NCBI GenBank assembly: GCA_003165295.1
Contig: PLTC01000081.1
Location: forward strand, 4,366-40,096
Length of the DNA stretch: 35,731 bases
Direction of reading: 5' to 3'
DNA from: Rhodospirillales bacterium
GTDB lineage: Bacteria > Pseudomonadota > Alphaproteobacteria > Azospirillales > Azospirillaceae
Below are positions 12,490 through 29,761 of this stretch, piece after piece. Below the pieces are notes generated by a model, which worked only from the letters and a program-made list of their open reading frames with translations, did not search any database and was not told where the DNA came from. Position 1 is the first letter of the stretch, and each line of letters opens with the position of its first letter. The position numbers were made by a program, and so were the translations under genes.

Positions 12490-12795
12490 CTAATATTCGA
12501 TAGACACGATTTCACCGATTTTCGCCAGATCGATGGAACGCTTGACATCATCACGCGGCCCGCGCACGATCAGCTTAATTTTCTTCTGTTCGGCCTCCTC
12601 CTGGAGAATTAAAATCATGCCGAGCCCGGCCGAATCAATAAAATCAAGCCCTGATACATCCACCACGAACCGGCGCAGATTGGGGCCATCCAATAGTGCG
12701 ACAATGTCCCGCAAACGATCGTGGTCGGTAAACTCCAGCCGCCCGGTGAGACGCGCTTCTATTGCATCTGCCAGGTTGCGCGCATGAAACTCCAT
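12490..12795 (-). CDS. STAS-domain anti-anti-sigma factor-like protein
   Basis: A 101-aa single STAS domain of the RsbV/SpoIIAA type. The hallmark FVVDVSGLDFIDSAGLGMIL includes Ser55, the expected phosphorylation site for the adjacent RsbW-type kinase. ATG 12795 is chosen because GAGG lies 5 bases upstream and the protein then has the normal family length; a longer reading to 12900 adds unrelated residues. It is the first gene of a three-gene minus-strand operon (STAS, GHKL kinase, receiver-PP2C). By analogy with Rsb and HsbA systems, its phosphorylation state would decide which partner it binds. That partner could be an anti-sigma factor, a diguanylate cyclase or another effector, and is not encoded here. 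Confidence 0.93.
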   Translation of the reverse strand: MEFHARNLADAIEARLTGRLEFTDHDRLRDIVALLDGPNLRRFVVDVSGLDFIDSAGLGMILILQEEAEQKKIKLIVRGPRDDVKRSIDLAKIGEIVSIEY

Positions 12796-13142
12796 CCTGT
12801 CCTCACTTTTGCGACGACCGCTGTCCTGGTCAGGCACTGCCGATGCCGCGGGATATTTCGCCCGGACGGCGCCTGTTGCGACTTGGTCCTCAGCCTTCAA
12901 TGTTAAAGCAAACCCGGAGAGAGTTGCCCCTCGCCTCGTTTTCCCCTTTTTTCGTCACCGAGATTAGCCTAACCCGGGTTGGCCCTCAAGCCCGCTCGGC
13001 AACCTCCGGCCAAAACCTTGCACCGTCCCGGTTCCGGCCCCCATGCCGAGACAGGACATCGCACATCTGGTATAGGGGCGTCGGGGACCGGGGTGGCCGG
13101 CGAGGCAACGGGTCAAAGACGGGCCAGAGAGGAACAGTGGCG
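12796..13142. other. Divergent intergenic region between STAS operon and histidine kinase gene
   Basis: This 347-base stretch separates two divergently transcribed signalling operons and must carry both promoters. It has AT-richer patches near 12901-12912 and 12945-12970 and a TATAGG word at about 13071, but I could not pair these with convincing -35 elements. Open frames crossing it are codon-bias artefacts. A purine-rich ribosome site, AGAGAGGAAC, lies just before the kinase start. Confidence 0.5.
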
Positions 13143-15556
13143 ATGGTCGGAGCCGCCATATGGGCAAGAATCCCTGCCGCCTGGGCAAAATTCCTGCTGA
13201 TCCTGATTCCCACCCTGGCAACCTCCACGGTCGCGTTTGCGACGGTGTTCTTCTACACCAAACGCATCGATCTCCGGCAGGAACTGGCCGCCAAGGTGGC
13301 AGGCATTGCCGACATCAATGCCTCGGCGTTGGCCGGCAGCCTGGCGGCCGTCGATCTCAAGAGCACACGCCACATCATCTCGGCAATTGCGATCAACCCG
13401 GAAGTCCAGTGCATCGACGTCACCGCCGAGGTCCCGCCGTTCCGATTCTCCTGGCCCGAAGCCGGTTGCCTGTCAGCCGACCGGCCGGCCGCCTCCGGCG
13501 CCGACCCGACCCCCCGATTGAGCCGGGAGATCGCCGTCGACGGACACCCCACCGGCCGGATTACCCTTTATTATTCTTACGAGCCGGTCAACAAGGCCCT
13601 CACCGAAGAAGTTTGCGATGCGATCTGGCTGCTGTTCCTGCTGCTGGTCGTCACCGTGATCACCGCGCTGACCGCGTACCGCCTGACCATCGGGGTTCCG
13701 CTGGCCCGACTGATCGCCTCCATCCGGCTGGCCGAACAAAAGGGCAGCCGCGAGTTGGTGGAATGGCAGGCCAATGACGAACTGGGTAACCTGATCGCCG
13801 CCTACAATCGCCTGCTGGTCAAGCTCGCCTACGAAGAGGTAGCGCTGCGCAAGAGCGAGGAGCGACTGAGCCTCGCCATCGCGGCCACCCGGTCTTCGGT
13901 GTGGGACATGGACCTGACCACCGGACAGATCTGGTGGTCCGCGGAATTCCCGGCGATTCTCGGCTACGGCCCCGACGGGTTGTCCATGTCGACCACGACG
14001 CTCGAATCCCTGATCCATCCCGAGGACCGCGACCGGGTGCTGAGCGAATCGCTGCGACACATCGTCGGTGAAACCGCCGGCTACTGTAACGTCTACCGCC
14101 TGCGCCGCCAGGACGGCCGTTATCTGTGGGTGGAGGACCGGGCCACTGCGATTCGCGACACCCACGGCGTGGCGTTGCGCCTGACCGGCATCCTGGCCGA
14201 CATCACCGAACGCAAGCAGGCGGAACTGGATCTGGCCCAGGAACGGGCGATCCTTCAGGCGACCCTGGAGAATGTCGACCAGGGTATCATCATGTTCGAC
14301 CCGGCGCTGCGGCTGGTGACCTTCAACCGGCGCGCGGCCGAACTGCTCAACATGCCGCTCAAACTGCTGACCCAACGCCCCACCTTCAATGAAATCATCC
14401 GCTGGCAGATGGCGCGCGGCGAATTCGGCGACGACGAACCGGCCGAGCGGCTGAAACACTGTTGGGAACGGATGCCCACCGAGTATTTCATGGTCAAGCA
14501 CCCGCGCAGCGACGGCACGGTGATCGAAATCCGCTCCAACCCGCTGTTCATGGGCGGCTTCGTCTGCACCTATACCGATGTCACCGCCGAAACCCGATCG
14601 GCCGCCGACACCCTGGCGGCGATGCAGGCCACCGAACGGGCCTATGCCGAACTCAAGGAAACCCAGGCCAGCCTGGTCCAGGCGGAAAAGATGGCCTCCC
14701 TCGGCATGCTGGTGGCGGGCATCGCCCACGAGATCAATACCCCGGTGGGCATCGCCTACAGTTGTGCCAGTCACCTGACCAACCGTACCCGCCAACTGGT
14801 CGCGGCCATCCAGGGCAGCAACCTCAAGAAGTCGGAACTGCTGACCTACGCCACCGCCGCCGCCGAATCGACGCGCCTGATGTCGGCCAATCTCAGCCGC
14901 GCCGCCGAGTTGATCCGCAGCTTCAAGCAAATCGCGGTGGATCAGGCCAGTGCCGAGTTGCGCCGCTTCGACCTCAAGACCTATATCGACGAAGTCGTCA
15001 CCAGCCTCGGGCCGCGCCTGCGCACCACGCCGCACCGGGTGGTGGTGGATTGCCCGCCGGGCCTCACCGTCAACGGCTATCCCGGCGCCCTGTCCCAGAT
15101 TCTGACCAATCTGGTGATGAACGCCCTGATCCATGCCTTCGACAACAAGCCGGCCGGCGGCACCATCACCATTTCGGCCACGGCGCCGGCCGATGCCGAC
15201 GACATCGACCTTTGCTTTGGCGACGACGGCACCGGCATTCCGGCCCGCATCCGGGCCCGGATATTCGAGCCGTTCTTCACCACCCGACGGGGCAGCGGCG
15301 GCAGCGGGCTCGGCCTTCACATCGTGTTCAATCTGGTGACGCAGACCTGCGGCGGGCGCATCACCGTCGACAGCACCGAAGGCAGCGGCACCACCTTTCA
15401 CATCCGCCTGCCCCGCGAAGCCCCGGCCCATCCCGATGGCCCGGGCGATCCCGAAACCCGGGCCGACACCGATGGCCGCACGCCCTCGCCCGCCGCCGCC
15501 CTGCCCGAGCCCGGGCCGGTGCCCCCGGCACCGCCCCTTGAGTCCCGGGTGGCGTC

Positions 15557-15560
<4 letters not shown>
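13143..15560 (+). CDS. Membrane-bound PAS sensor histidine kinase
   Basis: An 805-aa kinase. TM1 is at about 15-37, an extracytoplasmic sensor of about 120 residues follows, then TM2 at 159-182, HAMP at 183-235, a first PAS with PAC ending (about 240-360, ILADITERKQAE), a second PAS_7-like domain (366-485), a dimerisation/phosphoacceptor region with His529 in GIAHEINTPVG, and the GHKL ATPase at about 630-755 (N box LTNLVMNALIHA, G1 DDGTGIP, G2 SGGSGLGLHIV). The last 45 residues are Pro/Ala-rich. Signals may come through the periplasmic domain and the PAS domains. ATG 13143 is used; GTG 13137 has a better ribosome-site spacing and adds two residues. The stop overlaps the next start as ATGA, so this kinase and the following DUF3369-type hybrid are translationally coupled and are probable partners. 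Confidence 0.92.
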
Positions 15561-18595
<3,035 letters not shown>

Positions 18596-18922: not shown

Positions 18923-21900
18923 ATGACGGAGAGTCTTCCATACGTTCAGGAAATCGCAGGAAGCCCCATCACCATACAGCCTTACCAGTTTAACGATGCC
19001 GAGCTGGCCTGGTTCTTTCTGAAATGCGACGAAAATGCGATCAATGGGCTGCTTGATCGCTTTATAAACCTGCCATCCCAAGGCGCTGCCTCGTATCATT
19101 GCCTGGCCTTTGACGGCGTTACCGATGTGATCATGATCATGTCGAAAATGACCTTCGCGGTCCGCCTCTCGGAAGCCGTGGTCTGCGGCAATGAAACTTA
19201 TCACGAGCTGTCGTTCTGGATTCCGTGCGTGGACCGGCAGAGCGGTCAACCGGCGCTGTTTCTGCCTTTTCTGTTTCCCGACAGCTTTTCCGCGATTGCC
19301 ACCGGGCGCGAGGTGTACGGCTTCTTCAAGACTCCCGCGAGTTTCCAGGTCACGGGCAAGGGCAAGGGCGGCGACGAGGCGCTCATGCTCGATCCGCGCT
19401 TTTCCGCTTCGGCGGTCGGGTTCAGGAAGTTCGGCAGGGACGAGACCGCCCGGTTATATGAGTTCCTGAAGGTTGAGTTTCCGGCCGGAAGCGGAGCCTC
19501 GGAAATCGCAGCCTCGGAATCCCCAGCCCCGACGACCGGCATCCTCCGCGACCAACTGGCCCCGGTCCTCGGGCGCCTGCTGGCCGGGGCGACCGCCGCC
19601 GCCCGGAGCCTGGTGGTGGCGCCGCCCCCCGACTCGGCCCTCGCCCGCCTGATCGGGGCGCTGAGCGGGCTCGCCGGGGCGCGGCTGGAAGAGGGTTTCA
19701 TCGGCCTGGTCAATGCGCTCCTGGACCTGTGTCCGGCGATCTTTCTCAAGCAGTTTCCCTCGATCGGCGATGCCCGGCTGGCCGAAACCCGCAGCATCAC
19801 GGCGGCATCCTTTCAGTTGTCGAAGTTAAAAAAGGTAACGGTCTGGCCGTTCACCCGGCCGCCGATGACCTATGACCTGCACTTTCAGAACCTGGACAGT
19901 TTTCCTCTGGCCACGGCGCTGGGCGTGATCCCGGCCCGACAGGACCAGGACCTGACCGTCGTTCAAGCCCACGGATTCAGCACCGCCATTGACTTTTCAT
20001 TGGAGACAGGACGAACCATGGCCGATATTTCCAACAAAAAGCAAAAGATCGCGATCCTCGGCGGCGGCGCCGGCGCCCTTTCGGCGGCTTTCGGGATCAC
20101 CGAGGTCCCGGGCTGGCAGGACCAGTACGAGATCACCGTCTACCAATTGGGCTGGCGGCTGGGCGGCAAGGGCGCCAGCGGCCGCAACCGCACCGTCGCC
20201 GACCGGATCGAGGAGCACGGGCTGCACATCTGGTTCGGCTATTACGAGAATGCCTTCCGGGCGATCCGCACTTGCTATGCCGAACTGAACCGGGCGCCCA
20301 ACACGCCGTTGGCCACCTGGGACATGGCCTTCAAGCCCCACAACAGCATCGTGGTCCAGGAGTTCGTGGACGAGCTGCGGTTGCGTGACGGCACGGTGGT
20401 TCAGGAACGGCGGCCCCATTTGGGCGGCCCGTGGCAGACCTGGTACGTTCCGTTCGGCACCACGCCCGGAACCCCCGGCGACGAGGCCCCGGTCATCGCT
20501 CCCGATCCGGCGCTGGTGTTCCATCACCTTCAGCAAATGTTGACGCAACTGGCGGCGGCGATCGAACTCCCGCTGCCCCAACTGGACCAGATCGACGCCC
20601 TCATGGCGACCCATCTGGGCACCGACGGGCGGCAGGCACTGGGACGCCCGTTGACCGCCCTGCTCGCGGCCCTGCCGGCGCTGCCGGACCAGGCCAAAGC
20701 CTTCGCAAAGACCCTAACCGACCCCGGCGAGAATCGGCGATGGGCGAAGCGTCTCGAGGAAATTCTCGATCTGATCGAAAACTTCCTGAGTTTCCTGAAG
20801 GAGGTCCTGACCCTGCTGCTCGAGACGGTTGCCTCCGACCTCGCGCCGAGGCTGGCCCCGGCGGTAAAGGCGTTGCTGGAACCCTTTGCCCAATCCATCA
20901 ATTCGGTGTTCCGCATCGCCGACCTGGCCCGACTCGCGGTGGTCATCGCCAAGGGCGTGATCCTGGACGGCGTGCTTACCTCCGGTTATAAGTCGATCAA
21001 TCAGTACAATTTCACCGACTGGCTGATGGCAAACGGCGCCTCTTCGGCCCTGGCCAATTCGGCCATCGTCCGCGCCTTCTATGATCTCTATCTCGGCTTC
21101 CCCGACGGCAGGACAACGGACTGCGAAGGCGTCGGCATCGGCGGCAACGTTTCCGCCGGTGAGTTACTGCACAGCTATGTGCTGGTGGTCGCCTGCTATA
21201 AAGGCGCGATCATGTGGAAAATGCAGGCCGGTATGGGCGACACCGTGTTCACGCCGCTCTATCAGGCACTGAAGCAGCGCGGCGTGAAGTTCAGGTTCTT
21301 CCACAAGATCACCGATCTTCACGTCAAGGACGGCGCGATCAGCGCCATTGACTACGCCGTCCAGGCGACGCTGAAGGCCGGCCTGACCGAATACAATCCG
21401 CTCTATGATGTCAGAGGGCTGGCCTGCTGGCCATCGGAGCCCAATTACGACCAGTTGGTTCAGGGCGAGGCGTTGCGGCGACGTCACGTCGATCTCGAAT
21501 CCTCGTGGGCCAACTGGACGCCGCCGGCCACCGGAACCCTGGTCCGGGGCCAGGATTTCGATCAGGTGGTGCTGGGCATCTCGGTGGCGGCGCTTCCTTA
21601 TATTACCGAAGAGCTGGCGGCGGCCAACCCAGGCTGGCGGGCGATGCTGGACCACGCCAACACCTCGGCGGTCCAGGCCATGCAGCTGTGGCTGAACGTC
21701 AACCTGGAGGAAACCGGCTGGCCCCTGACCAGTCCGGTAATGGATGCCTATGCCGAGCCGTTCAACACCTGGGCGGCGATGGACCAGACACTCGACAAGG
21801 AAAACTGGCCGCAGAACGCCTTGCCGTTCAATATCGCCTATTTCTGTAACAACCGACCGGGAGAACTGCCGAAAACCCGCGCCGGGTTCGAAAAATTCAT

Positions 21901-22315
21901 CAAGGACAATCCGACATATCCCCAGCAGCAGAACGCGGAGGTGGAGAACGAAGGCCGGAAGTGGCTCGACGCCTACGCCCCCTATCTGTGGCCGACACTG
22001 CCCGGACCGGACGGGAAGGGCTTCGACTGGTCGGCGCTGGTGGATATGGAGAACCGGACCGGCGTCGAACGGCTGAACGGGCAATACTTCCGCGGCGAAG
22101 TCGAACCGACGCTGCGCTATGTCTGCAACAAGGCCGGGACCAACCAGTACCGGCTGACCGCCGGGGGCTCGGGTTTCACCAACCTGTTCCTGGCCGGGGA
22201 CTGGATCGACACCGGATCGCTCAATCTCGGCTGCGTCGAAACGACGGTGATCTCGGGGTTGCAGGCGGCCCGGGCCTTGACCAACTATCCGGTACCCATC
22301 GCCCGCGACGCCTGA
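18923..22315 (+). CDS. Fusion of acetoacetate-decarboxylase-like domain with phytoene-desaturase-like FAD oxidoreductase
   Basis: A 1130-aa single reading frame with two enzyme-like parts. Residues 1-365 resemble acetoacetate decarboxylase: the motif ATGREVYGFFKTPASF carries Lys136 where family members have the Schiff-base lysine, and a late segment (about 300-360) resembles the end of that fold. Between them is a helical insertion of about 110 residues. Residues 366-1130 are a flavin amine-oxidase/phytoene-desaturase-type protein: dinucleotide-binding KIAILGGGAGALSAAF near 375-390, QLGWRLGGKGASGR, EEHGLHIWFGYYENAF, and the C-terminal FAD signature NLFLAGDWIDTGSLNLGCVETTVISGLQAA. A long helical insert lies near 560-690. 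An ATG at 20018 with AGGA upstream marks the join. Substrate is unknown; a hydrophobic polyene, sterol-like or polyketide compound is only a guess from the family. ATG 18923 follows GGAG at a 9-base spacing. Confidence 0.8.
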   Translation: MTESLPYVQEIAGSPITIQPYQFNDAELAWFFLKCDENAINGLLDRFINLPSQGAASYHCLAFDGVTDVIMIMSKMTFAVRLSEAVVCGNETYHELSFWIPCVDRQSGQPALFLPFLFPDSFSAIATGREVYGFFKTPASFQVTGKGKGGDEALMLDPRFSASAVGFRKFGRDETARLYEFLKVEFPAGSGASEIAASESPAPTTGILRDQLAPVLGRLLAGATAAARSLVVAPPPDSALARLIGALSGLAGARLEEGFIGLVNALLDLCPAIFLKQFPSIGDARLAETRSITAASFQLSKLKKVTVWPFTRPPMTYDLHFQNLDSFPLATALGVIPARQDQDLTVVQAHGFSTAIDFSLETGRTMADISNKKQKIAILGGGAGALSAAFGITEVPGWQDQYEITVYQLGWRLGGKGASGRNRTVADRIEEHGLHIWFGYYENAFRAIRTCYAELNRAPNTPLATWDMAFKPHNSIVVQEFVDELRLRDGTVVQERRPHLGGPWQTWYVPFGTTPGTPGDEAPVIAPDPALVFHHLQQMLTQLAAAIELPLPQLDQIDALMATHLGTDGRQALGRPLTALLAALPALPDQAKAFAKTLTDPGENRRWAKRLEEILDLIENFLSFLKEVLTLLLETVASDLAPRLAPAVKALLEPFAQSINSVFRIADLARLAVVIAKGVILDGVLTSGYKSINQYNFTDWLMANGASSALANSAIVRAFYDLYLGFPDGRTTDCEGVGIGGNVSAGELLHSYVLVVACYKGAIMWKMQAGMGDTVFTPLYQALKQRGVKFRFFHKITDLHVKDGAISAIDYAVQATLKAGLTEYNPLYDVRGLACWPSEPNYDQLVQGEALRRRHVDLESSWANWTPPATGTLVRGQDFDQVVLGISVAALPYITEELAAANPGWRAMLDHANTSAVQAMQLWLNVNLEETGWPLTSPVMDAYAEPFNTWAAMDQTLDKENWPQNALPFNIAYFCNNRPGELPKTRAGFEKFIKDNPTYPQQQNAEVENEGRKWLDAYAPYLWPTLPGPDGKGFDWSALVDMENRTGVERLNGQYFRGEVEPTLRYVCNKAGTNQYRLTAGGSGFTNLFLAGDWIDTGSLNLGCVETTVISGLQAARALTNYPVPIARDA

Positions 22316-22369
22316 AGGTTGGGGGGCTACGTCCTCTTGTGTCGTTTCTTACCCTTGGCAGTACAGGAC

Positions 22370-29302
<6,933 letters not shown>

Positions 29303-29389: not shown

Positions 29390-29761
29390 ATGGCTGATAT
29401 TCTGATTATCGATGACGACGAGATGATGATTGACATCATTGCCGACGCCCTGGGTGATGCCGGCCATGCGACCCGTTCGGCGCCGGACGGGCCGGCCGGG
29501 ATCGCCGAGGCACTGCGGCAGTGTCCCGACGCCATCGTCCTCGACATTTCCATGCCCGGAATGAACGGCTGTCAGGTGGCTGCGGAACTTACCGCCTGCC
29601 CGGCAACGCGCCATGTCCCGATTATCGCCGCCACCGGCTTTGACGATACCGCCAAGTGGGATGCCGCCCTGGAAGCCGGCTGCACCTCGGTCATCGCCAA
29701 ACCGATTGTGTCGGAACATTTGCTGACGCAGGTGGCGGCGGTTCTGAAAACCGGGCGATAG
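29390..29761 (+). CDS. Single-domain response regulator (CheY-like)
   Basis: A 123-aa receiver with no output domain. Conserved residues are the acidic triplet Asp8-Asp10, phosphorylation site Asp52 (IVLDISMPGMNG), Thr82 (AATG) and Lys104 (AKPIVSE). It lies 87 bases after the giant kinase on the same strand, so it is a likely recipient of phosphate from the kinase's HPt histidine, or a phosphate sink. It could act on a motor, an enzyme or another kinase. The start at 29390 is the usual position directly before the first beta strand; the G-rich AGGGGGA upstream is rather distant at about 14 bases. It converges with a CheC-like phosphatase gene, a possible off-switch for it. Confidence 0.92.
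   Translation: MADILIIDDDEMMIDIIADALGDAGHATRSAPDGPAGIAEALRQCPDAIVLDISMPGMNGCQVAAELTACPATRHVPIIAATGFDDTAKWDAALEAGCTSVIAKPIVSEHLLTQVAAVLKTGR

Follow-up and report, generated by a model that had tools for sequence, protein, structure and literature searches.

The window analysed here, a stretch of 35,731 nucleotides from a Rhodospirillales bacterium (Azospirillaceae), contains an intact ORF on the forward strand (18923-22315, +; ATG at 18923, stop at 22315, no internal stops) that encodes a protein of 1130 aa. ORF calling simply took the longest frame, and an alternative, longer frame for the same gene opens at GTG 18815; since the alignment with the Deefgea relatives begins at the ATG, we consider 18923 the likely start. 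The protein is composed of an acetoacetate decarboxylase (ADC) superfamily domain (residues 1-365; 18923-20017, +), a very short linker, and a phytoene-desaturase-type FAD oxidoreductase domain (residues 370-1130; 20030-22312, +), with both halves supported by Pfam, by AlphaFold models compared with Foldseek, and by an alignment of 84 relatives. A PDB sequence search with the single 1130-aa protein returned nothing meaningful; in the Foldseek comparison, the AlphaFold model of the whole protein (pLDDT 85, pTM 0.74) matched the rice phytoene desaturase first (5mog, target TM 0.76) and ADC structures next. The intact frame and the Pfam and fold matches bear out the proposal of an earlier note on this DNA that decarboxylase-like and FAD-oxidoreductase parts are joined in a single protein of this length. 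Fusion by chance or an assembly artefact was ruled out, as isolate genomes of Deefgea, Shewanella, Pseudoalteromonas and Azospirillum possess both halves, either fused or adjacent.

In the N-terminal half, the Pfam ADC family (PF06314) matches residues 17-145 with an E-value of 6e-8, above the cut-off. An AlphaFold2 model of residues 1-365, built from 44 relatives (pLDDT 87), yielded 24 significant PDB matches (E <= 0.001), all 24 of them crystal structures of the ADC superfamily (target TM 0.56-0.68), headed by the aldolase-dehydratase from Streptomyces bingchenggensis (E 5e-13); domain search and structure prediction thus identify the fold that had been guessed for this region. Lys136 (codon 19328-19330, +), the predicted Schiff-base lysine already singled out in the earlier note as a catalytic residue of ADC type, sits in a GRE..G..K motif that lines up with the ADC chains, and is invariant in 84 of 84 aligned ADC domains, together with G128, G133 and Q277. 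Four residues after G89, loci L093-L097 (Azospirillaceae-type), Deefgea and the window itself have Tyr, and the remaining aligned members have Glu. We take this position to correspond to the catalytic Glu76 of Clostridium acetobutylicum ADC (an equivalence judged by motif, not by superposition); if so, the window protein lacks the glutamate of true decarboxylases. Because the lysine is invariant but the Glu76-like position varies, Schiff-base chemistry is probably kept, and its outcome may be either decarboxylation or an aldol/dehydratase-type reaction, as holds for the superfamily at large. An insert at residues 185-276, helical and also delimited as about 187-270, is found throughout the family (median length 56) and is longest, 92 residues, in the window.

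The C-terminal half is matched by Pfam NAD_binding_8 (PF13450) over residues 378-448 (E 2e-7, above the cut-off), while the match to Amino_oxidase is marginal (E 0.07, below the cut-off). The scores against the NCBIfam equivalogs are far too low for assignment to either of them: 43.2 bits for the hydroxysqualene dehydroxylase HpnE (cut-off 283) and 20 bits for zeta-carotene desaturase (cut-off 622). The FAD-binding Rossmann and GG motifs and the phytoene desaturase-like fold place this half among the phytoene-desaturase-type flavoproteins, as had been read from the sequence and in agreement with the Pfam and Foldseek results. Residues G380-G382, R412, G414-G415 and E431-H432-G433, along with other flavin motifs, are nearly invariant among 91 sequences, and 86 of the 91 have Gln (Gln408 in the window) instead of the usual Glu at the presumed ribose-binding position. 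Here too a helical insert is present (W507-G678, 172 residues, also delimited as about 529-681), again family-wide, with a median of 164. Helical insertions, described earlier as unusual, do occur in both halves, but judging by their medians they are mostly features of the family.

The enzyme gene is surrounded by genes for sensor proteins, all on the same strand and identified from Pfam or HMM matches and translations. Immediately downstream, a giant sensor (22319-29302, +; likely ATG at 22370, only about 55 bp past the end of the enzyme gene) combines Ser/Thr kinase, AAA_16, GAF, PAS, HisKA and HATPase domains with two receivers and an Hpt domain, an arrangement of enzyme and giant sensor that is repeated in Deefgea. 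It is followed by a stand-alone response-regulator receiver protein (29390-29761, +), without the GGDEF output present at the equivalent place in Deefgea (L013 20381-21313). Upstream lie a PAS-PAS sensor histidine kinase (12762-15560, +) and a hybrid histidine kinase with receivers and Hpt (15557-18595, +). The earlier note, which was right about the domain identities and the fusion, overlooked these neighbours. PADLOC gave no match for the enzyme, and the best-listed matches of the giant sensor ran through its kinase domain; with the enzyme unmatched, we rejected the idea of an anti-phage defence system.

Scanning genome contigs with the whole fusion, and adding loci from genomes related to that of the window, we obtained 86 loci, the window among them. 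An ADC partner is encoded in the same frame or in an adjacent gene at 85 of these 86, the sole exception being L085, whose contig begins inside the flavoprotein gene. In this core clade the pairing is nearly obligate, although adjacency was partly selected for, since the set was found with the whole fusion. The search was therefore repeated with a flavoprotein-only profile, which corrects this bias, in 398 genomes of Pseudomonadota, 194 of Cyanobacteriota, 201 of Chloroflexota and 189 of the phylum to which locus L092 belongs. Fusions in the order ADC-FAD occur in the window, Deefgea, Herpetosiphonaceae, Shewanella, Rhizobacter, Caldimonas, Spirulina and other gammaproteobacteria. Separate neighbouring genes, the arrangement that the earlier note had advised looking for, exist in either order: ADC then FAD in Pseudoalteromonas, most cyanobacteria and one Chloroflexi genome, FAD then ADC in Azospirillum and at L092. 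The reverse fusion, FAD-ADC, was found in a second species from the genus of the window (L093, 7444-10608); the flavoprotein-only searches added L151 from another phylum and L108 from other Alphaproteobacteria, and a plasmid collection added Qingshengfaniella (L169, also other Alphaproteobacteria). Fusion of ADC and flavoprotein thus recurs in many genomes and is not unique to that of the window. On a tree of 72 flavoproteins, in which the deep branches are poorly supported, the fused state changes at least 8 times. The window sequence groups there with Deefgea (Betaproteobacteria) and a Chloroflexi sequence, far away from the other copies of its own family, which suggests that the fusion gene was acquired horizontally.

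The Azospirillum clusters (L094-L097 and L170) comprise two divergent flavoprotein copies, one ADC gene, a FadL/TodX-type porin and a giant kinase, and in Azospirillum sp. TSH58 the cluster resides on a 569 kb plasmid. In one strain of Pseudoalteromonas lipolytica an in-frame stop splits the ADC gene (L072 9962-10906). At L106 (12408-17944) the flavoprotein is separated by a saccharopine-dehydrogenase-like gene from a pair of ADC-like ORFs and a TIR-TPR protein, which lie about 3-5 kb away. For some distant flavoproteins of the flavoprotein-only sample (e.g. L105, L107, L153-L156) no ADC gene was found nearby, and counts of such loci are upper limits, because two divergent fusions with a C-terminal ADC escaped the ADC profile and were recovered by Pfam. 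Some flavoproteins from the phylum of L092 have an N-terminal extension, which we considered as a hidden ADC domain; profile comparison rejected this for the group, and one extended member (L166) shows a weak ADC match. In L158, L159, L160, L161 and L163 from this phylum, an extra N-terminal domain with the motif YRAHN.SI and no Pfam match is present, which is encoded by a separate adjacent gene in Rufibacter tibetensis (L168 9409-10362). It appears to be an alternative partner to ADC.

Three types of sensors are encoded beside the flavoprotein: giant Ser/Thr-kinase/AAA_16/GAF/histidine kinases (the window, Deefgea, cyanobacteria, Azospirillum), adenylate cyclases with AAA_16 (Chloroflexi, Alphaproteobacteria and the phylum of L092), and 7TMR-DISM proteins, which are hybrid histidine kinases in Pseudoalteromonas and other gammaproteobacteria and diguanylate cyclases in Shewanella and Burkholderiales. 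RefSeq annotation independently puts cyclase genes beside the flavoprotein in Rufibacter (Bacteroidota) and Qingshengfaniella. In the first set, dereplicated at 60% identity and compared with control ORFs from the same loci, a signalling ORF lies within 400 bp at 14 of 19 loci against 7 of 126 controls (Fisher p 1e-10), and within 3 kb at 18 of 19 against 21 of 126 (Fisher p 2e-11). The flavoprotein-only set, which was not dereplicated, gave 18 of 24 loci against 0 of 75 control ORFs within 400 bp (Fisher p about 5e-15) and 20 of 24 against 1 of 75 within 3 kb (p about 5e-16). Sensors beside the enzyme were deliberately omitted from the controls; the signalling HMMs were built from the neighbours, yet describe general domains. 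Sensor genes being abundant in these genomes, as the 21 controls of the first set indicate, one could suppose that an ordinary lipid or carotenoid enzyme has acquired sensor neighbours by accident, but this is very improbable, as the linkage greatly exceeds that of the controls in both samples and extends over five phyla.

On the flavoprotein tree the class of the sensor switches at least 14 times, yet the linkage persists. At flavoprotein loci where no ADC was found a sensor neighbour is still present (L105, L148, L155, L163), and the association of the flavoprotein with sensors is closer than that with the ADC half. At L167 (5275-6813) one protein has ADC fused C-terminally to a cyclic-nucleotide-binding domain; its gene separates that of the flavoprotein from one for a Ser/Thr kinase-AAA_16 protein. 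The usual outputs are histidine kinase, GGDEF or cyclase domains, not DNA-binding domains; a Crp/Fnr regulator follows the cyclase in Qingshengfaniella and a DNA-binding TPR regulator is present at L107, so gene regulation is possible at those loci. In Pseudoalteromonas the operon (L028 9170-18313) encodes a short alpha/beta-hydrolase-like protein (recognised by motif only), ADC, the flavoprotein, a TonB receptor and a 7TMR-DISM hybrid kinase in the same order in some 30 genomes, and a periplasmic solute-binding protein also adjoins these genes.

The earlier note had suggested sequential chemistry on one substrate, and the occurrence of the two halves as fusions in both orders and as adjacent genes in either order argues strongly for such a two-step action. 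The flavin half, with its phytoene-desaturase fold, would oxidise or desaturate a lipophilic substrate, and Lys136 of the ADC half would form a Schiff base with it, leading to decarboxylation or to a reaction of the aldol/dehydratase type; the order of the two reactions is one that we infer. That the substrate is lipophilic is suggested less firmly, by the desaturase fold and by the FadL and TonB neighbours in some lineages. Enzyme and adjacent sensor would then constitute one functional unit, in which the product sets the activity of the sensor as its ligand and the signal passes on through phosphotransfer, c-di-GMP or cAMP, according to lineage. Taken as a whole (an enzyme with two functions and a single lipophilic substrate, united with a sensor whose ligand is most likely the product), this is the reading that we favour, though we put it slightly short of an even chance. 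Against it count the distant flavoproteins for which no ADC gene was found nearby and the transport genes next to some members, which could indicate uptake and degradation. Its most delicate element is that the product, rather than the substrate, may be what the sensor reads; we lean to the product since the outputs are mostly c-di-GMP, cAMP or phosphorelay, not what one would usually expect where a degradation operon is regulated locally, and since the enzyme-plus-kinase modules RpfF/RpfC and CqsA/CqsS operate in that way.

The main and serious rival to the product as ligand is catabolism of the substrate: the sensor would detect an imported lipophilic compound, the two-step enzyme would consume it, and the molecule sensed would be the substrate itself. 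The TonB receptor, the putative hydrolase and the periplasmic binding protein of Pseudoalteromonas and the FadL/TodX porin of the Azospirillum cluster fit such a scheme, but additional genes for degradation are not conserved from lineage to lineage, we recognised none next to the enzyme gene of the window, and the sensors mostly have no DNA-binding outputs, so that we regard it as rather unlikely. It is more doubtful still that the flavoprotein serves as a redox or ligand sensor subunit, controlling the adjacent kinase or cyclase by contact, with catalysis secondary. Flavins are common redox sensors, and the sensor neighbours retained at the four loci without a detected ADC would suit this role, but the invariant ADC lysine and the nearly invariant flavin motifs are as expected of active enzymes.

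In no fewer than four further phyla, the gene of a relative nearly always adjoins that of a large sensor; this suggests a unit of enzyme and sensor, so far undescribed, that would make or process a small molecule to which the cell responds. The signalling reading is drawn from gene association only. As a more tentative generalisation, the family could represent a widespread signalling system in Pseudomonadota, Cyanobacteriota, Chloroflexota, Bacteroidota and the phylum of L092, in which a lipophilic signal, made by a flavin oxidoreductase together with a partner of ADC type or another kind, is read by interchangeable receptors (7TMR-DISM proteins, AAA_16-TPR kinases and cyclases) that feed c-di-GMP, cAMP or phosphorelays. 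Members are currently labelled in RefSeq only generically ("NAD(P)-binding protein", "FAD-dependent oxidoreductase", "acetoacetate decarboxylase family protein"), and in the open-access literature, the scope of our survey (subscription papers and preprints lay outside it), we did not find the ADC-flavoprotein pairing or its linkage to sensors described. To our knowledge, orphan sensors of the 7TMR-DISM, giant kinase/AAA_16/GAF and cyclase/AAA_16 types are common and their ligands mostly not known. A conserved enzyme beside them offers a direct route to a sensor ligand, and would give a function to a flavoprotein family with generic database names only.

Compared with known members of the ADC superfamily (Clostridium and Chromobacterium ADC, the aldolase-dehydratase Sbi_00515, MppR, Swit_4259), the window domain shares the fold and the lysine of the GRE..G..K motif, but is only about 10-14% identical, contains the helical insert, is fused to or adjoins a flavoprotein and, in the subclade of the window, has Tyr at the presumed Glu76 position. 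Anabaena all0736, a homologue of plant NXD1 (neoxanthin-deficient 1) annotated as a member of the acetoacetate decarboxylase family, is found on lipid droplets with carotenoid enzymes (PMC12923008). An ADC-family protein near carotenoid enzymes is a lead only: cyanobacteria with the ADC-flavoprotein system also possess separate, shorter ADC-family proteins (frames of 229-248 aa) closer to canonical ADC, so the window domain is unlikely to be an NXD1 orthologue and probably belongs to a different subfamily. With the plant and cyanobacterial phytoene and zeta-carotene desaturases and HpnE, the window flavoprotein shares the GG-type flavin motif and the GLH..FG.Y motif, which we take to be common to desaturases; it differs from them in NCBIfam scores that fall far short of the cut-offs, in a helical insert some 150 residues long, in Gln replacing Glu (86 of 91), and in the ADC partner and the sensor neighbour. 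In the RpfF/RpfC (DSF) and CqsA/CqsS (CAI-1) modules, the gene of the signal synthase is linked to that of its receptor. The two halves of the window protein match only ADC and flavoprotein families, unrelated to the crotonase-type RpfF and the PLP-dependent CqsA, and the class of the sensor varies widely among relatives. For the RpfC/RpfF synthase and sensor, see PMC13220807. The likeness to both modules lies in an enzyme gene consistently placed beside a sensor gene, the linkage typical of quorum-sensing synthase/receptor modules, with c-di-GMP outputs occurring as well.
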